A stretch of DNA of 64,000 bases from Candidatus Schekmanbacteria bacterium. Its GTDB lineage: Bacteria; Schekmanbacteria; GWA2-38-11; J061. The stretch is from positions 452,473 through 516,472 of the forward strand of contig JACRJM010000007.1 of assembly GCA_016219965.1 (NCBI GenBank), given 5' to 3'. Positions 4,151 to 57,234 of this stretch are shown in pieces. The position numbers and the translations under genes were made by a program. The stretch's first letter is position 1. Every line of letters begins with the position of its first letter. Under the pieces are notes generated by a model that saw only the letters and a program-made list of their open reading frames with translations, did not search any database and had not been told where the DNA came from.

Positions 4151-5874
4151 TGATTATAGAACATGATGTAGTAATAGTCGGAGCAGGGCTTGCAGGCGCA
4201 AGGGCGGCAGTTGAGCTTTCAGGAAAAACTGATATCGCGGTTGTATCCAAAGTGTTTCCACCGCGATCGCATTCAACAGCAGCTCAAGGCGGCATAGGGG
4301 CAGCATTAGGAAACTTAGAGCCGGATTATCCTGAATGGCACGCTTTTGATACGGTGAAAGGAAGCGATTATTTAGGCGATCAGGATGCCATCGAGATAAT
4401 GGCTTATGATGCTCCGCGGGCAATCTATGAGATGGAGCACATGGGTGTACCATTCAGCAGGACAAAGGAAGGGAAGATTGCCCAGCGCCAGATAGGCGGA
4501 CATACGAGGAACTTCGGTGAGGGTCCTGTAAAACGATGCTGTTATGCGGCAGACAGGACAGGCTTTGTCATGCTTCACGCCCTTTATGAGCAATGTATAA
4601 AAAAGAACGTCAAATTTTATTCAGAGTTCCTGATGCTTGACCTTCTTATAGAAAATAATGTCTGCTGCGGCATTGTCGGCATAGATATAAAGACCGGCGA
4701 GCTTTCTGTGATACATTCCAAAGCAGTGCTTTTTGCAACAGGCGGCTATGGTAAAATCTTTAAAACGACTACAAACGGTTACGCCTCAACAGCGGACGGA
4801 TATGCCATAGCATACAACTCCGGTCTTCCGCTCGAGGATATGGAATTCGTGCAGTTTCATCCCACAGGACTTTACAAACTCGGCATACTCATAAGCGAAG
4901 GTGCACGCGGCGAGGGAGGAATACTCCGCAATAACGCTGGCGAGAGATTCATGGAAAAATATGCTCCGACTATGAAAGACCTTGGACCCCGCGACCTTGT
5001 TTCAAGATCCATCATGACAGAAATAAAAGAAGGACGTGGAATCGACGGGAAAGACTATGTCTATCTTGACCTTCGCCACCTCGGACGAAAAGAGATTGAC
5101 CTAAAGCTTCCCGATATATCTGATTTCAGCAGGATCTATCTCGGGATAGATGTTGCCGAGTCGCCCATACCAATCCAGCCCACGACTCATTATGCTATGG
5201 GAGGAATCCCCACTGACAACGATGGCAGGGTAATAATAGGGAGCCAGAAAGTTCCTGTTACAGGATTCTATGCGGCAGGGGAAGTTGCATGCGTATCAGT
5301 GCATGGAGCAAACAGGTTAGGCACAAACTCACTTCTCGATACAATTGTATTTGGCAGACGCGCCGGCAAATCGATTAATGAGTTTTTAAGGTCTGCTGAA
5401 TTTGAGCCTCTTCCACAAAATCCAATGGAAAAGACAAAGGAAAAGATCAGTGGAATCATTAACAGCAAAGGAAAAGAAAAGGTCCCTGAAATCAGAAAAT
5501 CCATGCAGGAAGAAATGATGGACAAGTGCTCGGTTTACAGGGAAGATAAAGGACTCACAAAGGTTTGCGGACATATTAAAGAACTGAAGGAAAGATATAC
5601 AAATATTTCAATTGCTGACAAGGGAACAACATACAATACAGATCTGCAGGACGCGATAGAGCTGGGTTTCATGCTCGATATCGCAGATGTGATTGCGACG
5701 GGCGCCCTTAACAGGACTGAAAGCCGCGGGGCACATTGTCGCGATGACTATCCTAATCGTGATGATGCTAAATGGCTAAAGCACACCCTCGCATATAAGT
5801 CCGATTCGGAAATTAAAATTGAATACAAAGACGTTTGCATAACGAAATTTCAGCCAAAGGAAAGAAAGTATTAA
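4150..5874 (+). CDS. Succinate dehydrogenase/fumarate reductase flavoprotein subunit
   Basis: A 574-aa flavoprotein of the SdhA/FrdA family. It has [13 protein letters not shown] (residues 8-20) for FAD and [17 protein letters not shown], with H41 as the likely covalent FAD attachment residue, which separates it from L-aspartate oxidase. Other hallmarks are [17 protein letters not shown] and [12 protein letters not shown], plus a full C-terminal helical domain. It would interconvert succinate and fumarate. No iron-sulfur (SdhB) or membrane-anchor (SdhC/D) gene follows; the next gene codes for an unrelated 235-aa protein. It may use the upstream ferredoxin, or subunits coded elsewhere. Confidence 0.93.
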
Positions 5875-8797: not shown

Positions 8798-9865
8798 TTA
8801 ATAACGAGGGCCTGAAGACTTCCTGGGAGGCACTGCCCCGGTCTTTCCTGCTGCCAGCTCCTCATAGGTTACCTTCATTGGGTTCCTGTCCCAGGGCATA
8901 TATGTCTTATCTGCCTCGCCAGAGGAAAGTATATTTACATATCCCCATCCGCAGCCATCAAAATTATTGAACGGGTCGCTTCTGAACATTTCCGAAGTAT
9001 AAGCAGGAACTCCCTTGGGCGCATAAGGCCAGGGCCAGGCAGTAGAAAGCACGCCGTGAAAAGATACATTTTTTAACCTGTTAGTAAGTACCTGGTGCGT
9101 ATGACCGTGTATCACCGTTACTTTTTCAAAAGGGGAAAGAATATTCTGCACTTCTTCAGCATCATCAGTCCAGAAATTCCAGTTTTTGTATAACTTGTAA
9201 AGAGGTGAATGGGAAAAAATCACAACCGGCATAGTACTTGCAACTTTTGACAAATTGTTTTTAAGCCAATCACGCTGTTCACTTCCTACCGTGAACGGAC
9301 GTCCATTGGGATTATCAAGCTGCGCCATGGCATTCATTCTCTGCTCAGGCGTCATTTTAGGTTTTGTCCAGTAATCTTCCACTATGACAGAGTTCAAAAC
9401 TACAAAGTGCACCCCCTTGTGATCAAAGGAATATGTTTGCTGGCCGAAAAGCTGCTGCCACTTTTCGCCCATGTCAAGATACCAATCATGCTCTCCTACC
9501 ATCATTCTAAGCGGAGCCTTGATTGCAGAGAGAATATCCTTCCCCATTTCCAGCTCTTCAGGTTTGCCAAGCTGAGCCAGATCCCCGCCGAAAAGAACAA
9601 AATCAGGCTGGGGATTCATCGCATTTATATCATTAGCAGCTTTTATCAGAGACCTTGCGAATCTATGATCCTTACCCTTGGAAGAAAAAATCAAATGCGC
9701 ATCTGAGGCATAGGCAAAGGTGAATGACTCTCCCGCATTACCAACATCTATAAATATCCCGGGACCCATGGCAATGCCCGCAACGCCGGCGGCTGATAAT
9801 TTAACAAATTCCCTTCTGCTGAGCTGACGGCCTTTCTTTATAATCTCATCATGCTTTCCTGACAT
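8798..9865 (-). CDS. TAT-exported metallophosphoesterase
   Basis: A 355-aa calcineurin-like phosphoesterase. The N-terminus carries a twin-arginine signal (SRREFVKLSAAGVAGIA), so the folded protein is exported to the periplasm. The dimetal site motifs are in order: YASDAHL, GGDLAQLG, GEHDWYLD (in place of the usual GNHD), FSHSPLY and HGHTHQ. It lies between the cytochrome c peroxidase (17 bases upstream) and the cytochrome c (28 bases downstream), so it is probably co-transcribed with both. The natural phosphoester is unknown. The E replacing N in the GNHD motif may change metal or substrate handling. Confidence 0.88.
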   Translation of the reverse strand: MSGKHDEIIKKGRQLSRREFVKLSAAGVAGIAMGPGIFIDVGNAGESFTFAYASDAHLIFSSKGKDHRFARSLIKAANDINAMNPQPDFVLFGGDLAQLGKPEELEMGKDILSAIKAPLRMMVGEHDWYLDMGEKWQQLFGQQTYSFDHKGVHFVVLNSVIVEDYWTKPKMTPEQRMNAMAQLDNPNGRPFTVGSEQRDWLKNNLSKVASTMPVVIFSHSPLYKLYKNWNFWTDDAEEVQNILSPFEKVTVIHGHTHQVLTNRLKNVSFHGVLSTAWPWPYAPKGVPAYTSEMFRSDPFNNFDGCGWGYVNILSSGEADKTYMPWDRNPMKVTYEELAAGKTGAVPPRKSSGPRY

Positions 9866-47546: not shown

Positions 47547-47915
47547 TTAGGTCCGAAGCGGCAAAATGCGGATTCTTGATTTATGCTTGTCTATTGAAAT
47601 AAGCGCACCCATTTCAAGAACTGATTCATATTGTTTTAATATTTTAACTGTCTCTATTCCTGAATTCCTGGGCAAAACATCCTGCGTACGAACTTGAACT
47701 ACACTTGGTCCTTCAGCATTAGTTGCGGCAAGAAGTACTCCAAAGTCAAGGTCATGTGTGAAAACGACATAACCGTTATTACGCGCCCACTCCATTATTA
47801 TCCTGTCAGACGCACGAAGATCTCCCACAGATGACCAATGAATTGCATCCAGTCCCTGTTGCTTAAATACATTAACCCAGTCAGGTGTTAGATTTACATC
47901 AATGAGTATTTTCAT
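47547..47915 (-). CDS. DUF5615 PIN-like toxin
   Basis: A 122-aa protein with a PIN-like nuclease layout: MKILIDVNLTPDWVNVFKQQ with the first acidic residue, WSSVGDLRASDRIIMEWARN, VVFTHDLDFGVLLAAT with the second acidic cluster, and a C-terminal RIRILPL. DUF5615 proteins pair with DUF433 antitoxins and are presumed RNases. It overlaps the antitoxin gene upstream as ATGA, so they form one operon. Confidence 0.87.
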   Translation of the reverse strand: MKILIDVNLTPDWVNVFKQQGLDAIHWSSVGDLRASDRIIMEWARNNGYVVFTHDLDFGVLLAATNAEGPSVVQVRTQDVLPRNSGIETVKILKQYESVLEMGALISIDKHKSRIRILPLRT

Positions 47916-48142
47916 GAATTAATCAGAGGCAATTCAATTTCCTCAGAGCGCCACGCAGCATACGCAAGCGCTTCGCGGATATCTTCTTCTTCCAGGTATG
48001 GATATGCCTGCAAGATATCAGTATTGGAATAACCTTCAGCAACAAGACCAACAATAGTACCGACTGTAACACGCAAGCCCCGAATGCATGGCTTGCCGCC
48101 CATTACATCAGGGGCAAAGGTGATTCTTTTCAGATTCTTCAT
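47912..48142 (-). CDS. DUF433 antitoxin
   Basis: A 76-aa HTH-like protein: ITFAPDVMGGKPCIRGLRVT, VGTIVGLVAEGYSNTDILQA and YPYLEEEDIREALAYAAWRS are the DUF433 hallmarks. It is the presumed antitoxin for the overlapping DUF5615 gene. A GGAGG-like site (AAGGAGG) lies before its ATG. The 252 bases upstream, to the TPR/CSD gene, are A+T-rich and show no feature I can name. Confidence 0.88.
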   Translation of the reverse strand: MKNLKRITFAPDVMGGKPCIRGLRVTVGTIVGLVAEGYSNTDILQAYPYLEEEDIREALAYAAWRSEEIELPLINS

Positions 48143-48394
48143 AACAGACCTCCTTTTTTTTCTAAAGCTGATGCAACTACTTAAAATAATACTTATTTAT
48201 TTTAATATTATTTGCCATAGTTAGCAACAATCTCTGCTAATTCGTGGAGATTAGGCCAGTTTCCTTTTTTTACAGATTAACAGCTTGTCAGCGCACATAA
48301 ACTTTTTTAAAAATTACTTCATACTCTATTTCTGAAGCATTTTTCCTAATTTTTTAGTTCGACCTATCATTTTCTTCACATATAAATATTATCT

Positions 48395-49687
48395 TCAAGC
48401 AGGGATAATGTTTATAGCTTCTTCAGATTCTTTTTTCTTAGCTTTGTCATATGATTGTTGAACATTGAATGTAACTTTTATTTCTTCCATTAATTTAGCT
48501 TTATTCCCATTAAAGGAAATAACGCGGAAATAATAATCCTTACCATCAATTGACTTTATGAAACCGGCTTTTCCGTTTGGTAGCAATTTTTTAATTTTCC
48601 CCTCCTTTTTAGGAAGTTGATCAGATTTGTTCTTTTCCCAGAACTTCTTAAGTTCACCTAATAAATGTTTATACTCTACATTGACAGGCAATGTAATAGA
48701 TAACTCCCTTAAATGGTTTGTCAGCTGTTGTGGAATTTTCCATCCGTGTTGTTCTCTTAATTTATATGCTAATAGGGCATGTTTCTTTGATAATTCTAAC
48801 TGGTTAATTTGTTGAAGTATTAACGAACAAAAATAGTACACCTCCCAAGTATTTTCAGGTTTTTGACTTCGCAATGATGATATACAGGCTTCTATAATAT
48901 AACTAAGAGCATTCTCATGATCTTTTAATTCAAAATAAAAACAAGCTATGTCTCTATAAATAAACCATTCTCTTTTTTCTCTAGCAATTAACTTTAGGGA
49001 CTCAATAGCATGGATGCGATTACCCAATTGTCCTTCACAAATAGCTCTGCGCCTTTTTAACCAAGCATCGTCAGGGAAATCCTTCAACGCCATATTACAA
49101 ATCTCTAAACACTTCTTAAAATCTTCAAGTTTTTCATATGCTTTTGATGTTTTAGAATACCATGATTGTAACTTAGAGGGGATTTCAATATTTTTCTTAT
49201 TTAAAGAAGTAATAAAAGCTTCTTTAGAAAGGGATTTAAATTCCACTTTTTCAGACCATAATATTACCTCTTGCCACATGCCTTTATCAGCACAAAAATC
49301 CATTATTTTAAAAACTGATAGCTGACGGAAAATATTTTCGAGTTCGGATTCAGTATGCAAAATAACTTCTTGAACATAATCTTTTACTGCACTGTAATTA
49401 ATGTCATCATCGAGATTCTTTAAATGTAAATAGTAAATAGCACGTACATATTCTAATTTTATTAGCTTGAATTCAGGATCAATTCTCTTGACTTCTTTAC
49501 ATACATTTAAAGCTTCATTATGTTTCTGAACTTTATTTAAGCAAAATGCTAAACTCCATCCATCCCATTTATCTTTTTTTTCTTTTGTTTTACCCCACAC
49601 AACCATGAGCGATTCTATGGCTTCCTGGTAATTTTTTTCTTTCCTAAGTTTAGAAGCTTTTTCTCTGATTGACTTTAAGTCAGTCAT
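48395..49687 (-). CDS. TPR protein with C-terminal cold-shock-like domain
   Basis: A 430-aa cytoplasmic protein. Residues 1-350 are helical repeats, several TPR-like (NYQEAIESLMVVWGKTKEKK, KKCLEICNMALKDFPDDAWL, HENALSYIIEACISSL). The last ~70 residues look like a cold-shock/S1-type nucleic-acid-binding fold: KIKKLLPNGKAGFIKSIDGK, DYYFRVISFNG and VTFNVQQSYDKAKKKESEEA followed by AINI. A TPR scaffold carrying a CSD suggests an RNA- or ssDNA-binding partner. It overlaps the helicase stop as ATGA, so the two are made together. Codon and base use are more A+T-rich than in the flanking genes. Confidence 0.75.
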   Translation of the reverse strand: MTDLKSIREKASKLRKEKNYQEAIESLMVVWGKTKEKKDKWDGWSLAFCLNKVQKHNEALNVCKEVKRIDPEFKLIKLEYVRAIYYLHLKNLDDDINYSAVKDYVQEVILHTESELENIFRQLSVFKIMDFCADKGMWQEVILWSEKVEFKSLSKEAFITSLNKKNIEIPSKLQSWYSKTSKAYEKLEDFKKCLEICNMALKDFPDDAWLKRRRAICEGQLGNRIHAIESLKLIAREKREWFIYRDIACFYFELKDHENALSYIIEACISSLRSQKPENTWEVYYFCSLILQQINQLELSKKHALLAYKLREQHGWKIPQQLTNHLRELSITLPVNVEYKHLLGELKKFWEKNKSDQLPKKEGKIKKLLPNGKAGFIKSIDGKDYYFRVISFNGNKAKLMEEIKVTFNVQQSYDKAKKKESEEAINIIPA

Positions 49688-51822
49688 AGCAAATTAATGA
49701 GCTCCTGAATTAAAATAGCTGAGTTGCTAAATTGTTCTTGTGGATGGCATTTAACAAACCTTCCTTGTTCATTATAGTAGAAATTGAGCTGAGCAACTTC
49801 ATTATTTCTTATAAAAATATACTTTTCTAAATATAGGTTGTGTTCGATTTTGGAAATTGTAATTATTGTCCCGGATATCTTTGTAAGAATGTCATTATAA
49901 AATTCTTTTAAATGGGGTTTATTTTCTGGGAATGTAATTTCATTACTGAAGTACTTTTCTTGATAATCTAATATAATTTTACCACATAATTTCTGTAAAG
50001 AGTTTAAAATATCATCTATATTGCCATCTGAGTTAATAACTTGAATATTAGTTATTTTGTTTTTTGAATATATTACATCTACTGTTAATGAGCCTAAGGG
50101 AGATTCTATTTCATATCTTTCTCGATAGTTAAAATGTTTGATGTTTTTTATAGTTGTGTCAGAGTTCATTTCATTTCTAACCATATGATAACAATCCTGT
50201 TGTAACTCATTTCCAAATTTAACTTCTTGTGCTTGGGTTATTTTATCATTAACAATCGTTTGGTTTTTACTCAATGAAAGCTTCATTACTAGTTCTGCAG
50301 GAATGATTTTTAAATAATCAGAGGGGCCTACATTAGGATTGTTCAATACATAGAGAAGTTTCTTGCTTCGTGTAAGCGCAGTATAACACCATCTGAAATA
50401 CTCTTCATTAAATTTGGCATTTGAAGTTTGGAAATCTACTATCGTAGTATTCCATTCACCACCTTGTGCTTTGTGACAAGTTACCGCATAGCCATATTTA
50501 AGCTGAATGGAATTAAAATAAAGATCCATTTTTATAGCCTCTTTAAATTCTGGGGTTCCTGCTTTTAAATTTGGATTACGTAATTTAAAAAGTATATAAA
50601 GAGCTCTTGTCTCATCATTGGTTAGAGTTGGCTCTTTTGAATTAAGTGGGGTTTCTATTATTTTGCAGTTGATTTCAAACAACTCTCCATTTATGTCTGG
50701 AACTTCTATGGTAATATCTCTAAAAGATAGTGTGACAGTTATATTGTCTGTCTTTTTTTTAAGGGTTAAAGGTATTTTCTCAGTCTCTGAATTAATTCTT
50801 TTTACTCTTCCGAATTCACCATTTAATACCTTATACTTATAATTATTACGTATAATTAAAACTTTATCATTTTCTTGAATTTCATCTTTTCCCGGAAAAA
50901 AATGATTCCTTACTAGTTCATTAAGATGATGTACACTTTTATTGGAGTAGGCAATTATAATAATGTCGTTTGTATTGCTATTTGCTGTTGCTTTAATGTA
51001 CGCACTTAATAAGTCTTCATGCTTAATTGGTATAATGTCATTTAGATTTTCATCTATATTTATTTTATTAAATTTCTTGGTTTGAATATTGTCTCTGATT
51101 TTTGTGGCGTTCTTAAGTATGCCACTGTCTTTATCTTGCCTTGCTACATCAGTCATCTCGCATTCTTCAATCGTAAGTCCAAAGGACAGGTTAGACAGAT
51201 AGATGGAATCAATCGCTGGAGATAATTTCATATTAACAGGTGGTAATTGTGCAGAATCTCCAACAAAGATGATCTTGCGATTAAGTTTAGGGTTATTGAA
51301 ATCTATATAATTCAAAAGATCATTAAGCAGAAACCCACTTCCGAACCTGATAAACTCTGTATCTGAATATTGGTTTGATATCATTGAAGCTTCATCAACG
51401 ATATAAATTGCATTAGCAGGATCATCATTATTTTTAAGCCCAAAGAAATAGCGAAAAGTCTCTGAGCCATCTTGGCCAGTTTCTTTGTATTCCAGCAGGT
51501 TATCATTTGAATAAATTGATTTATGAATAGTACTAGCATCCCACTTTGTTTTTTCTTGAATAACTGAAGCTGCTCTCCCGGTTGGAGCCATTAGTTTAAA
51601 TGTTTGTTTTTGGTTTGAGAGATATGAACTTATTCCGCAGAGAAGAGTTGTTTTGCCAGTGCCAGCAAACCCTTTAAGTAAAAAACATTTTTTGTCATTA
51701 TTTAGAAAGTTGTGAAGTTTCTTTACAGCGTCAATTTGCGATAAGGTTAAAGGGAAATTAAATATTGAGCTTATATAAGATGTCAAATTTGAATTATTTT
51801 TTGGCTCATTTCCAATATTCAC
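49684..51822 (-). CDS. RecD-like superfamily 1 helicase
   Basis: A 712-aa SF1 helicase of the RecD/TraA type. Motif I is KGFAGTGKTTLLCGI (51-64), Ia is APTGRAASVI, II is YIVDEASMI, III is FVGDSAQLPPV, V is YAVTCHKAQGGEW and VI is YTALTRSKKLLYV; all are intact. The ~200 C-terminal residues after motif VI are unrecognised. It may unwind DNA or RNA:DNA ends with the TPR/CSD protein encoded next. It starts 165 bases after the 337-aa gene and may have its own promoter or continue the same transcript. A+T-rich. Confidence 0.88.
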   Translation of the reverse strand: MNIGNEPKNNSNLTSYISSIFNFPLTLSQIDAVKKLHNFLNNDKKCFLLKGFAGTGKTTLLCGISSYLSNQKQTFKLMAPTGRAASVIQEKTKWDASTIHKSIYSNDNLLEYKETGQDGSETFRYFFGLKNNDDPANAIYIVDEASMISNQYSDTEFIRFGSGFLLNDLLNYIDFNNPKLNRKIIFVGDSAQLPPVNMKLSPAIDSIYLSNLSFGLTIEECEMTDVARQDKDSGILKNATKIRDNIQTKKFNKINIDENLNDIIPIKHEDLLSAYIKATANSNTNDIIIIAYSNKSVHHLNELVRNHFFPGKDEIQENDKVLIIRNNYKYKVLNGEFGRVKRINSETEKIPLTLKKKTDNITVTLSFRDITIEVPDINGELFEINCKIIETPLNSKEPTLTNDETRALYILFKLRNPNLKAGTPEFKEAIKMDLYFNSIQLKYGYAVTCHKAQGGEWNTTIVDFQTSNAKFNEEYFRWCYTALTRSKKLLYVLNNPNVGPSDYLKIIPAELVMKLSLSKNQTIVNDKITQAQEVKFGNELQQDCYHMVRNEMNSDTTIKNIKHFNYRERYEIESPLGSLTVDVIYSKNKITNIQVINSDGNIDDILNSLQKLCGKIILDYQEKYFSNEITFPENKPHLKEFYNDILTKISGTIITISKIEHNLYLEKYIFIRNNEVAQLNFYYNEQGRFVKCHPQEQFSNSAILIQELINLL

Positions 51823-51987: not shown

Positions 51988-53001
51988 TTATTTTTCTATA
52001 CTTGCTTCATCTAACTTCTGGCATTCCTTAAGATGCTCAAAACAACCATTATCTATTTTAATAATATTTCGTTTAATTGTTTCCCCATCCGGCATAAAAA
52101 GATCAAATCCTCTATCAAATAAAACTACAGCAGGTTGTGCCTCTAAATGGCGTGCATGAAATATTCCACTTTTATCTTCCTTAACCAATAATTTAATCTT
52201 CCATTTAAACTTTTCTTGTAATGGCTTTATTAATTCCTTCATAACTTTATTATACGCTTCTTGATTCGAATTCTTTTTTTCGCTTTGTTTGCTGGCAGGT
52301 TCATCATCATAAATTATTTCTTTTTGGCAAGTTATGACTTCTACTTCCAGATCATTTTGAACAGCAAAATATCCATTCGTGAGCCACAAGTTCAATATAA
52401 AATCAATTCCCTTTCGAAAATGGCTTGTATTTTTACCTCGACCTATTTGCTTATCATAGAAGCGCAGATATTTCGCAAAACGAATTGAACGAGTAATTAT
52501 TTCCGCCAGTTTTTTCTTATCTAATTGGTCAATAGGGGGGACATCTTCCATTAGCCAACGGCGATTTTCTTCAAACTCGCTGTAAATATAACCATTTAAT
52601 GTCATAGTTTTAAAATCCGGATTCTTCTTTTGGATCTCCTCTCTGTCCATTTCACTTAATATGAGGGAATCAGTGTTACAAATAGAATTAACATTGTACG
52701 CTAAGTTCAACAGATTATTTTTTTTAAAACTTTCTAATCCCTTATCATTACAGTTAACAAAATGTTTGCGTTTATTTTTCAGGAGTTCTTCCATTAATAT
52801 ATTTATTTTTGTTTTATACTTTATAGGGAGTGTTTTAATTTCACTTATTAAATTATCCTTTAAGAATCCATCTGGATCAACTATAAGAAGCCCATTGCTT
52901 CTAATACCCCTTAAAAACATTTCAGCATTTTCTCGATAACCAGGTAAGTCATAATTATCTTTGCAAAATGCAGAGGGAGCAACAACTGCTGTCATGAGCA
53001 T
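51988..53001 (-). CDS. Unrecognised protein, possible PLD-like effector
   Basis: I do not recognise this 337-aa protein. No signal peptide or membrane helix. Near the C-terminus FHARHLEAQPAVVLFDRGFD and an upstream KWKIKLLVKEDKSG strand, after GIDFILNLWLTNGYFAV and LEVEVITCQ, resemble the second half of phospholipase-D-like folds (HxR before a strand and Gly-Asp), but the full HxKxxxxD motif is absent. GAGGAA precedes its ATG, 12 bases after the DUF3696 ATPase gene, so it is co-transcribed with it. By position it is the likely effector or partner of that ATPase. Confidence 0.55.
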   Translation of the reverse strand: MLMTAVVAPSAFCKDNYDLPGYRENAEMFLRGIRSNGLLIVDPDGFLKDNLISEIKTLPIKYKTKINILMEELLKNKRKHFVNCNDKGLESFKKNNLLNLAYNVNSICNTDSLILSEMDREEIQKKNPDFKTMTLNGYIYSEFEENRRWLMEDVPPIDQLDKKKLAEIITRSIRFAKYLRFYDKQIGRGKNTSHFRKGIDFILNLWLTNGYFAVQNDLEVEVITCQKEIIYDDEPASKQSEKKNSNQEAYNKVMKELIKPLQEKFKWKIKLLVKEDKSGIFHARHLEAQPAVVLFDRGFDLFMPDGETIKRNIIKIDNGCFEHLKECQKLDEASIEK

Positions 53002-53013
53002 ATCTGCATTCCT

Positions 53014-54636
53014 CTAAGAAATCTCATCCATCCGTTCCGGGAAAAAGCCATCAGGCCATTCATCAATAAAATCACCTTCCTCATCAATGTGCAATCGCTG
53101 CGCTTTGGAACCATCATTTTCCTTACTTATATAAATTATAGATACATCATCAGGCTTGAGAACTTTTTGACGTATTAATTTTTGTAATCTCAAAATAAGA
53201 TGTTCACTGTGAGTTTCAACAATGAATTGATTTTTTTCTTTTATGCAGTGAGCCAAGAAAGTTCCTATCTCAGCCTGTAAACGAGGATGGAGATGTAATT
53301 CAGGTTGTTCAATTAGAATTAAATTATTTGTTGATAAAACTCCCTGAACTATTATTGGGAGCAACTGACTTATACCAAAACCAACATCTGTTGGACTAAC
53401 TTTTATATTATTTATTTTATCAATTAAATTTATACAAAATAAATTTCTAAAATTTTGATCTTTTGAAATATTTGCAGACAGATTGTAGGCTATCTCAAAT
53501 TTTTCTAACCATTTATTAACTTTCCTAGATATTCTTTTATCATTAAGTAAAATTGTCGGTGTAAACTCACCAATTTTCCCCACACCAGACGGAAACTCTC
53601 CAGAATACTTGTACTGTCTTTCAAGGACCTGCCTGACAGGACCAAGATAAATTATTTTATTTAATTTTTCTCCTAATGTTTTTCCCACTCGCCATGCTAT
53701 CTTTCCAATCCCATTGTCTTCTGTTTGCTCTATCCCTATATCCTTACTATAGGCATCAGCAGCATCACCAATAATTTCAAATACATCATCTGTTGAATAT
53801 TTATCCCAGCATGGAAGAAAATGATATGCCAACAATGCTGTGTTGTTTAAATTTAAACTTAAATCATTCAAAAAATCATCAAATGAATATTTAGTAATTT
53901 TAACTAAAATGTTACATATTTCTTTTTTTCTTTTGGACAATTCAGCATAGGATTTTCTGTCATTTTTTTTACTATTTTTAAGCAAATAATTTAATTTATT
54001 TAATTCTCTATTCAAGTCTTTTAACTTTTTCTTTATTTTACTCTTAAATTCATTCCAGTTTCTTTCTATCAGTGGATGTTTATCGTTTAAATACTTGAGT
54101 CTTAAAAAAGAGTTATATTCACCAAATAAGTTATAAAAAACTGCATCGTTTAATTCCTTATCACTATCAACATGACTCATGCGGTATGAACCTAATATCA
54201 TATTAGCAACAGAGAATGAGTAATCTTCTAATTCTATTTTTTTTGACTTAGAAAAAATAAATGAAAATTTGCAATCTGCAATCAGATTATTCTCTTCATC
54301 ACAAAAACTTGACATATCCTCATTTTCAAAAAAACTAAGTCCAAAATTAAAATCATGATCTGTACTTATTTTGAATCCAATGGACAGGCGCTTATTAATA
54401 TCATGGTTATTAATAAATTGATAATAATCATCAATATCTATTATTTCCCCAACAGGCTTTAACGCTTCATCATAGTTTTTATTATCATCTACAGTCTGTT
54501 TTAAAAGCAATAAAGACTGCAACACTGACGTTTTTCCTGAACTGTTTGGACCAAATAAAAGAGTGATTGGTCTTATTGGAATCCTCTGTTCTTTCCCAAA
54601 AGCTTTAAAATTTTCAATTCGTAACTCTGTTAACAT
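53014..54636 (-). CDS. AAA family ATPase with DUF3696-type C-terminus (RecF/OLD-like)
   Basis: The ATG at 54636, with AGGGAGA upstream and downstream of the sigma54 promoter, gives 540 aa starting MLTELRIENFKAFGKEQRIP; the frame extends 144 bases further upstream but that part has no homology-like content. ABC-type ATPase motifs: Walker A FGPNSSGKTS (28-37), a signature-like VGFGISQLLPII, Walker B NLILIEQPELHLHP and the H-loop ETHSEHL. A long charged, coiled-coil-like insertion lies around residues 190-260. The C-terminal EEGDFIDEWPDGFFPERMDE is typical of DUF3696. Such ATPases partner with effectors in several defence systems. Confidence 0.88.
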   Translation of the reverse strand: MLTELRIENFKAFGKEQRIPIRPITLLFGPNSSGKTSVLQSLLLLKQTVDDNKNYDEALKPVGEIIDIDDYYQFINNHDINKRLSIGFKISTDHDFNFGLSFFENEDMSSFCDEENNLIADCKFSFIFSKSKKIELEDYSFSVANMILGSYRMSHVDSDKELNDAVFYNLFGEYNSFLRLKYLNDKHPLIERNWNEFKSKIKKKLKDLNRELNKLNYLLKNSKKNDRKSYAELSKRKKEICNILVKITKYSFDDFLNDLSLNLNNTALLAYHFLPCWDKYSTDDVFEIIGDAADAYSKDIGIEQTEDNGIGKIAWRVGKTLGEKLNKIIYLGPVRQVLERQYKYSGEFPSGVGKIGEFTPTILLNDKRISRKVNKWLEKFEIAYNLSANISKDQNFRNLFCINLIDKINNIKVSPTDVGFGISQLLPIIVQGVLSTNNLILIEQPELHLHPRLQAEIGTFLAHCIKEKNQFIVETHSEHLILRLQKLIRQKVLKPDDVSIIYISKENDGSKAQRLHIDEEGDFIDEWPDGFFPERMDEIS

Positions 54637-54685
54637 TATATTTTCTCCCTTATACTTATTACCATTCCCGTCTGTGATCTTTATA

Positions 54686-54702
54686 TTGCAATACACATGC
54701 CA
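54686..54702 (-). promoter_or_regulatory. sigma54 (-24/-12) promoter of the ATPase operon
   Basis: On the minus strand, TGGCATGTGTATTGCAA matches the sigma54 consensus TGGCACG-N4-TTGCW with one change. The GG and GC doublets are exactly 10 bases apart. Transcription would start near 54677, about 40 bases before the ATPase ATG. It lies 139 bases downstream of the CARF-sigma54 activator gene. An imperfect dyad GGTTTAATGTAACC (54805-54818), about 120 bases upstream of the -12, is a candidate activator site. Confidence 0.8.
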
Positions 54703-54840
54703 AGTAGACTGATTCAAGTAACCTGTTAAAAAACAATTAGTTCCCGTAGCCGTAAAAAAGAAAAGCTTTTTTAGCATCAACCAAAGTTTAAATTCTTCAA
54801 CTCAGGTTTAATGTAACCACCTTATTAAAATAAATTAACT

Positions 54841-56364
54841 TCATAACTGGTTTTTTGCTTTCACAAACTTGCTTACTGCCTGAGGTGAAACACCTAAAAG
54901 CCTTGCCGCTTCACTGCAACGACCTCCTGCCTTTTCTAATGCTTTTGCAAAAAAATAATTTCGGATATCTGATAGCGTGTTATCCAGTAGAAATCCGGGA
55001 TAAGGTTCAGGCAAACTTTCAAAATATTTGTCACCCTTCTTTGATTGGCTCGGTTTCAAATCCTGAGGAACTATAAGCCTATCCTTAGAAATTAAGACTG
55101 CCCTATGTACAACATTCTTCAATTCACGAGTATTCCCCGGCCAATCCTGACATTGAAGAAACGCAAGAGCTTCTGGTGAAAATGACTTAGGAACTTTTAA
55201 GCCCTGATTAAATTGATCTAAGAAATAAAGTGAAAGCAATGGAATATCAGACCTTCTCTCACGAAGAGATGGTAGTTTTATTTCACCGACATTTAATCTG
55301 AAATACAAATCTTCCCTGAACTTCTTTTCTGAAATGGCTGAGTTTATATCACAGTTTGTCGCAGCAATGATTCGCACATCAACCTTATGGCTGTTATTGC
55401 TTCCCAAAGGTTCCACAATCCCATCCTGCAATACACGGAGAAGTTTTCCCTGAACTTCAAAGTTCAGTTCAGCAAGTTCATCGAGAAAAAGCGTACCGCC
55501 GTCTGCAACATCAAATTTTCCGGCTTGATCCTGCAATGCACCGGTAAACGCCCCTTTTTTGTGACCAAATAGGAAGCTTTCCGCAAGTTGCTTTGGGATT
55601 GCCGCGCAATTTACAGCAACGAAAGGATCTTTTTTTCTGCTGCTAAACCTATAAATAAGATTTGCTACAACTTCTTTTCCAGTTCCTGATTCGCCAAGAA
55701 GCAAAATAGGAATATCTGGTTCTGCTAATATAACTGAGGTTTCAATAGCTGAGATAAATGTAGGATGTTTGCCAATAATACCTTCTCTAGCCATTATATA
55801 AGAAAGTTTGTTTTCCTTCTCGTCAGGGCTCTGATGTATGACAAGCTCAGTGAGCTTTTTAGGCTGTATATCTGGAAATTCAGAGAGTGTTATATCTACT
55901 TCAGTTACTAATGGAGTTTCATCCGTAGCAAAACGTTTAGGTTTGATGTTTAATATTGTTGCCGAAATCTCTCCGCTCGCTGTCAATAAAAGCCAGCATG
56001 CGTGCATCTGCGGTGTCCCTGATGCAATCGCAATATAATATTTTGTATCAGTTGTATTGCTGTTTATTTCATTAAATATTATGCGAAGCCCTGTTAATAT
56101 CTGAGAGTAATCAGTAGGATCAAAAACGTTCAAATGTTTGGTGAGTGTTTCAATTCCCTTAAATCTTTCTTTTATCGCTTCATTAGTCTTCTTAGTAATT
56201 TCTATAGTTTTTGGAGTTGAAATAAGAATAACCCGGTCAAATTTTTTTTCTCTGAGAAGTGATAAAATCGGTCCCTCTTCTTCCTGCCCATCTATTAAGC
56301 CAGGAGAATATGGATCATGGAATCCGGTAAAAGTTAGAAGAATATTAGAAAAGGCTGTTACCAT
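54841..56364 (-). CDS. CARF-domain sigma54-dependent activator, RtcR-like
   Basis: A 507-aa enhancer-binding protein in three parts. Residues 1-165 are an RtcR/CARF-type sensor: [40 protein letters not shown] and [20 protein letters not shown], matching RtcR's DPWDFEEVY and HITTGTHVAQICWFLL blocks. The AAA+ domain has Walker A GESGTGKE (224-231), the sigma54-contacting GAFTGA (271-276) and Walker B TLFLDE. A Fis-type HTH ends it ([20 protein letters not shown]). CARF domains bind cyclic oligonucleotides or RNA ends. A matching sigma54 promoter lies just downstream, before the ATPase gene. Confidence 0.9.
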
Positions 56365-56526: not shown

Positions 56527-57234
56527 ATGGAAACATTAAAGGATATACACTCTATAGCAATAGCGGAGCTTAAAAAAAAGTTCACTCTTAACCCTGTAAG
56601 CCTCACTCATCCATTCCCAGAAAGACCGACGAAAATATTATTCAAGCCATTGATCAAGATGGATGGCAATATTTTCAGCGCAGAAAAGTTCACGCGCATC
56701 ACATTCTTGCGGATAAATCTTCCGGTTTACATGTGTGTGCGTTCCACCTTCCTTCGCCCCCGCATAGAGCTTGACCTTCCGGTAATGTCGGCTGAATGCG
56801 TTATCATGGGTGGAAAGAGGATGTTCATGGTTGATGTCCACAGGACAGGGGAAGGAGAAAGACCCGGGGACAAGGAATTCTTTGACAGGCTCGTAAAGAT
56901 AAGGGACAAATATCCGGATCTCCTTAAAAACAAGACCAGGACCGGCGGCGACCAGATACAGACTGTTTTTTCAAGAGCTGTATGCCAGGCAAAGATCACA
57001 TCTGCTCAGGATGGTGAAGCCTTAAAATTGTTCCGGGAATATCTAGGCGAATTCTGCGAACTCGCTAAAAGCACAAAGCCTCTCGCCGGATCATCTCTGG
57101 AAGAAGCAAACAATAAATATGCGGACTATCTGAAAACCGTTGTCGACCACGACCCGGGAGTCAAAGGCTACAAGATGTTCTTCGGAGAGGAAGGGGGCGT
57201 GCAACGTTCAATGGAGATGTTTTTTAATTCGTAA
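56527..57234 (+). CDS. Conserved protein resembling ferredoxin-dependent bilin reductases (tentative)
   Basis: A 235-aa cytoplasmic protein not assigned with confidence. TRITFLRINLPVYMCVRSTF, IELDLPVMSAECVIMGGK and MFMVDVHRTG (residues about 55-115) recall the antiparallel sheet and the DLP-x-F-G-x-D-L core of PcyA/PebA-type bilin reductases and red chlorophyll catabolite reductase. It parallels the 5878 protein in length and in this core. The C-terminus (YKMFFGEEGGVQRSMEMFFN) resembles a helix near the bilin pocket. GAGGAGGAAC gives a strong ribosome site. It is divergent from the CARF regulator and not part of the island by strand or base composition. Confidence 0.4.
   Translation: METLKDIHSIAIAELKKKFTLNPVSLTHPFPERPTKILFKPLIKMDGNIFSAEKFTRITFLRINLPVYMCVRSTFLRPRIELDLPVMSAECVIMGGKRMFMVDVHRTGEGERPGDKEFFDRLVKIRDKYPDLLKNKTRTGGDQIQTVFSRAVCQAKITSAQDGEALKLFREYLGEFCELAKSTKPLAGSSLEEANNKYADYLKTVVDHDPGVKGYKMFFGEEGGVQRSMEMFFNS

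Follow-up and report, generated by a model that had tools for sequence, protein, structure and literature searches.

A conserved promoter module points to sigma54 control of a probable inducible defense operon behind a CARF-type activator gene

Does the near-consensus sigma54 box that lies between a predicted sigma54 activator gene and an ATPase gene in this window (the whole 64-kb stretch of DNA that we analyzed) serve as a promoter, and if so, which genes does it control and under what circumstances? We conclude that the box, TGGCATGTGTATTGCA, is a genuine sigma54 promoter site, and we consider it very probable that it drives a ligand-gated, inducible defense operon for which the upstream gene encodes the dedicated activator. 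The original prediction had recognized the promoter and the activator, both of which our analysis supports, but had missed the CARF sensor, the tandem enhancer sites and the defense nature of the downstream genes.

Results

The box is correctly placed in a genome that appears to use sigma54

The promoter region is made up of the following features:

54841..56364, minus strand: activator gene, encoding a Csm6-like CARF domain, a sigma54-interacting AAA+ domain with GAFTGA and a Fis-type HTH (RtcR_PspF2; profiles, alignment, fold)
54687..54702, minus strand: sigma54 (-24/-12) box, TGGCATGTGTATTGCA (consensus match, genome enrichment, conservation in homologues)
54645..54651, minus strand: ribosome-binding site AAGGGAG of the first target gene (sequence)
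53014..54636, minus strand: first target gene, encoding an AAA_15/DUF3696 ATPase similar to PADLOC NsnB, PDC-M55A and HEC-03B

We found that the box reads from 54702 down to 54687 on the minus strand (the last A quoted earlier is 54686), with GG at 54701-54700 and GC at 54689-54688, which gives the exact GG-N10-GC spacing. As had been predicted, it differs at one position from the reference, TGGCACGNNNNTTGCW (CACG to CATG), and homologous promoters carry T and C at this position about equally (14 T, 13 C). The distance of 139 bases from the activator stop codon to the box was also given correctly, and the good ribosome site expected about 40 bases past the box is AAGGGAG, which begins ~35 bases past it and stands 8 bases from the ATG at 54636. 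Transcription from this box would be expected to start near 54676. We considered the TTG at 54780 as the start of the ATPase gene and rejected it, because the box would then fall within the gene and because ATG 54636 has a good ribosome site.

The presence of rpoN and a genome scan for further matches had been proposed as checks on the promoter, and both results favor it. A profile search of the whole genome (3.58 Mb, 98% complete) revealed that RpoN is encoded in one copy (E 1.5e-63), and 130 sites in the genome match TGGCAYGNNNNTTGCW with one mismatch or none, compared to 11 for the reversed pattern. The genes just behind other listed sites, which we identified by eye from protein starts, include those for a type IV pilin, an ammonium transporter and a flagellar rod/hook protein, all of them typical sigma54 targets. 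Thus, given RpoN, the enrichment of sites and these typical targets, this organism appears to use sigma54 routinely. Among the 33 genomes searched (this one and 32 carriers of activator homologues), rpoN was found in 31.

Tandem palindromes stand at a conserved distance from the box

The original prediction had placed one candidate dyad at enhancer distance from the box. Such a dyad exists, and in fact there are two:

54776..54791, minus strand: proximal candidate enhancer palindrome, TTAAACTTTGGTTGAT, 89 bases before the box
54796..54811, minus strand: distal candidate enhancer palindrome, TTAAACCTGAGTTGAA, 109 bases before the box

Both palindromes are of the TTCAACCnnGGTTGAA type and lie in tandem, 20 bases apart, with centers ~107 and ~127 bases ahead of the expected start. 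Their conserved distance from the box fits the upstream enhancer sites that accompany sigma54 promoters, and the two are probably the enhancer sites of the activator. We found no tandem pair of this kind elsewhere in this genome; thus, the activator probably has only this target here.

Scanning genome contigs with the CARF part of the activator yielded 35 homologous loci, whose record titles name Deltaproteobacteria, Nitrospirae, Planctomycetota, Acidobacteria, Verrucomicrobia, Gammaproteobacteria, Cloacimonadota, Eisenbacteria and others. Near complete activator genes, we observed 16 boxes with no more than one mismatch in the 5.8 kb behind the stop codon, compared to 5 in 420 kb of sense-strand DNA elsewhere. 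Two tandem TTCAACCnnGGTTGAA palindromes directly precede the boxes in homologous loci, spaced 20-22 bp apart, with the pair ~93 bp before the -24/-12 box; the palindrome-to-box distances peak at 89-94 and 109-115 bases, and the spacing in the window (89 and 109, with dyads 20 apart) is at the edge of the observed range. Unlike this distance, that from the activator stop to the box varies widely (29 to 683 bases), and the palindromes themselves may be located within the activator gene at its 3' end, in the gap, or alongside the payload. We counted 25 modules with the full composite in 504 kb, two of which (the first in locus L057 and the one in L046) are uncertain and have weaker elements, compared to 0, 0, 1, 0 and 0 when the distance was shifted by 30, 60, 120, 200 and -60 bases, and 0 in reversed sequence; the loci that were counted had also supplied the consensus, a circularity that the shifted-spacing controls and a DNA-only search lessen and do not abolish.

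For the DNA-only search, we looked for a single palindrome plus a box at the module distance in the genomes of 389 relatives of one carrier. Of the ten that matched, four were known carriers and six were new; a wrong-spacing control with one extra base between -24 and -12 matched two of the 389. Among the new matches, G174 carries the tandem module next to an activator homologue (495 residues aligned at 49.7% identity), and G393 carries it 108 bases short of a contig end; the other four have no tandem pair and seem to be chance matches. Viral contigs yielded two composite matches, neither with an activator or tandem dyads.

These results bear on the alternative that the box is a chance sequence and that read-through from the activator gene accounts for expression of the ATPase. 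Weak matches do occur in the window at the chance level (64 found with at most three mismatches, 73 expected), and we found no strong terminator between the activator and ATPase genes, the fold of 54740-54845 being no better than that of shuffled sequences. However, the box is the sole match with at most one mismatch on both strands of the window and one of only 10 perfect matches to the degenerate consensus in 3.58 Mb, and its position relative to two dyads is conserved across phyla, with near-empty controls. We give almost no credence to a chance match, which this conservation and these controls lead us to reject, and the earlier judgment that chance was unlikely thus holds.

The homologous loci are not uniform. 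Some, such as L065, L067 and L068, are without the module, and L060 has a single palindrome and a weak box at 67 bases. In L039 (597-801 from the activator stop) and L064 (2092-2282), tandem palindromes and a perfect box are 169-204 bases apart rather than 93-114; these are possible spacing variants. In L057, a possible second module (5030-5160) precedes an RmuC-like gene ~4 kb upstream of the activator, with a weak box that may be due to chance. L046 has a composite (9475-9490, minus strand), weak in its second palindrome, ~100 bases ahead of a gene set that is convergent to the activator and encodes a 263-residue protein, then an ATPase and its partner; this placement suggests that module and payload travel together.

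The activator joins a CARF domain to a sigma54-type AAA+ domain

The activator (507 residues, CARF-AAA+-HTH) has the features of a bacterial enhancer-binding protein, an AAA+ domain with Walker motifs and a GAFTGA loop plus an HTH, and domain matches, motif and fold all agree with the earlier claim that a sigma54 activator lies upstream of the box. It matches PADLOC RtcR_PspF2 (1.5e-127) and Pfam Sigma54_activat (8.9e-65), and its CARF part matches Pfam RtcR (1.8e-10). Alignment with 26 homologues revealed an invariant 10-residue stretch in the CARF part, the GAFTGA loop, which in such proteins contacts sigma54, and a conserved HTH. In the predicted model (pLDDT 84), residues 193-438 match NtrC1 (Z 29.3, 1.8 A, 246 residues), and residues 2-165 match Csm6' bound to cyclic hexa-adenylate (cA6) (Z 17.2, 3.0 A, 150 residues). 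Csm6 binds cyclic oligoadenylate.

We found no protein relatives of the activator in viral contigs and none in plasmids at 1e-90; the matches in phage records are mostly over the AAA+ part. The divergent neighbor of the activator gene (56527-57234, plus strand) matches ferredoxin-dependent bilin reductase (Pfam 1.1e-11), which would be unexpected in a non-phototroph.

The genes behind the module resemble defense genes

Three further genes follow the ATPase gene:

51988..53001, minus strand: second target gene, encoding a 337-residue protein without a family match (profile scans, alignment)
49684..51822, minus strand: probable further target, encoding a RecD-like helicase with a C-terminal TBP-TOTE domain (PDC-M16A; profiles)
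48395..49687, minus strand: probable further target, encoding a TPR protein with an OB/cold-shock domain (profiles)

The 337-residue protein can be aligned weakly, at 17-19% identity, with the partners of ATPases in L055, L041 and L046; our searches found no family, plasmid relative or solved-structure relative for it, and its fold model is poor. The helicase and TPR-OB genes overlap by 4 bases. With a TBP-TOTE domain on the helicase (4.4e-26) and TPR fused to a cold-shock OB domain in its neighbor (8.1e-58), this pair combines an effector with the TBP-like, TPR and OB domains that mark a TOTE conflict system, and in a Shewanella plasmid homologue, a TPR gene is likewise found behind the helicase. 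Immediately past the TOTE genes (47547-48150, minus strand), a small gene followed by one for a DUF5615/PIN-like protein resembles a toxin-antitoxin pair.

The TOTE pair is likely to be in the same transcript as the ATPase pair. We also considered that the promoter is real and serves only the ATPase and its partner, with the helicase/TPR-OB pair independent and under its own promoter in the 165-base gap ahead of the helicase gene. That gap is itself consistent with this arrangement, as are the helicase-TPR pairs on E. coli and Shewanella plasmids, which have no such activator adjoining, and the helicase is associated with the activator in none of the other sampled activator loci. On the other hand, the TOTE genes are on the same strand, and simple scans of the gap found no terminator and no sigma70-like site on that strand, scans that prove little. 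We put the chance of an independent TOTE pair at somewhat below even.

The payloads differ between loci and include type I restriction-modification systems, CARF nucleases and ATPase pairs. In most loci, hsdR, hsdM and hsdS of type I restriction-modification lie behind the module, the hsd genes usually being preceded by a conserved 94-residue SNase-like protein. Other payloads include a VWA protein plus a CARF-PD-(D/E)xK nuclease (L058) and an ATPase pair resembling that of the window (L055). The SNase-like mini-protein (~94 residues; IDGDTFEV...VRPxGYDAPEL...DRGRLVCDVY) is the first gene product behind the promoter in most type I loci (L034 2246-2530, L044 10703-10987 and ~15 further loci) and is absent from the window; its matches to Pfam SNase are just under the cut-off.

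Discussion

A ligand-gated switch would hold the operon silent

We infer that a ligand triggers this operon, that the activator binds the dyads and that the products act against viruses; for the mechanism, we draw on what is established for enhancer-binding proteins and for RtcR. Without ligand, the Csm6-like CARF domain, acting as the sensor, would keep the AAA+ domain inactive and the promoter closed, with the C-terminal HTH binding both tandem palindromes. With ligand, an activator oligomer on the palindromes would come to the box by looping of the DNA, and its GAFTGA loop would remodel RNA polymerase-sigma54, opening the promoter. The induced transcript would then encode the ATPase and the 337-residue protein, and probably the TOTE pair as well.

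Searching this 98% complete genome with one profile, we found no Cas10, only sub-threshold palm matches, of which the full-length one is a PAS/GGDEF protein. We therefore rejected a type III CRISPR system of this genome as the ligand source; in an organism without Cas10, as this one appears to be, the signal would need another source. In RtcR, repression of the AAA+ domain by the CARF domain lasts until a ligand binds (PMC9650030, PMC7790460), and the protein responds to tRNA fragments (PMC7790460) and was not activated by oligoadenylates (PMC9650030).

This precedent raises the alternative that the promoter is real and that the activator controls stress or RNA repair in the manner of RtcR, with a payload acting on the cell's own damaged RNA or DNA. 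The CARF domain does belong to the RtcR superfamily, tRNA fragments do trigger RtcR, and RtcB exists in the genome. However, rtcB is on another contig (C4; the window is on C7), the activator scores 327 bits, well below the cut-off of 650, against the RtcR equivalog, and the payloads behind the module are mostly restriction-modification or CARF nuclease systems. We regard RNA repair as an improbable function for this switch and prefer an inducible defense operon.

Going beyond this locus, we see an even chance that the module and its activator are a portable, ligand-gated sigma54 switch that has spread across phyla and keeps interchangeable defense payloads off until infection is signaled by a nucleotide or an RNA end. 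The occurrence of the module, with the same spacing, before different defense genes suggests that these defenses are kept off until a signal molecule appears. Its exact promoter, probable binding sites and spacing rule make the sigma54 prediction of 2014 directly testable; the module is also a DNA signature for finding target operons without prior knowledge of their genes, and a ready reporter for seeking the ligand of these CARF domains.

Relation to known systems

We found no published description of these palindromes, promoter or spacing in a literature search that covered subscription journals thinly; the cis-regulatory module thus appears to be undescribed, while sigma54 control by such activators has already been predicted. 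Among the closest known systems is the RtcR/rtcBA RNA-repair operon of E. coli and Salmonella, which shares the CARF-AAA+-HTH activator, the sigma54 promoter and the upstream activating sequence. In contrast, the target genes in the window are not rtcBA (no protein neighboring the activator matched RtcA or RtcB), and the activator scores far under the RtcR equivalog cut-off.

In the accessible text of Makarova 2014 (PMC4012209), RtcR-like CARF proteins beside restriction-modification genes are proposed as sigma-54 activators of downstream genes. Those activators (PADLOC RtcR_PspF2) share with ours the protein family and the association with defense genes; they differ in that the window has an ATPase pair, probably together with TOTE genes, as its payload, and promoter and binding sites are not given in that portion of the paper. 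A similar role is proposed, in the available part of the CoCoNuT paper (PMC11090510), for RtcR homologues ahead of defense superoperons. These likewise have an RtcR-like activator at the 5' end of co-directional defense genes, whereas the window proteins that we scanned include no match to McrB or McrC, and cis elements are not described in that part of the source. Finally, the TOTE (TPR, OB, TBP, effector) conflict systems, cited in PMC12458937, share the TBP-TOTE domain found on the window helicase and the adjacent TPR-OB protein; the pair in the window differs in lying behind a CARF-sigma54 switch, an arrangement absent from the other sampled activator loci.
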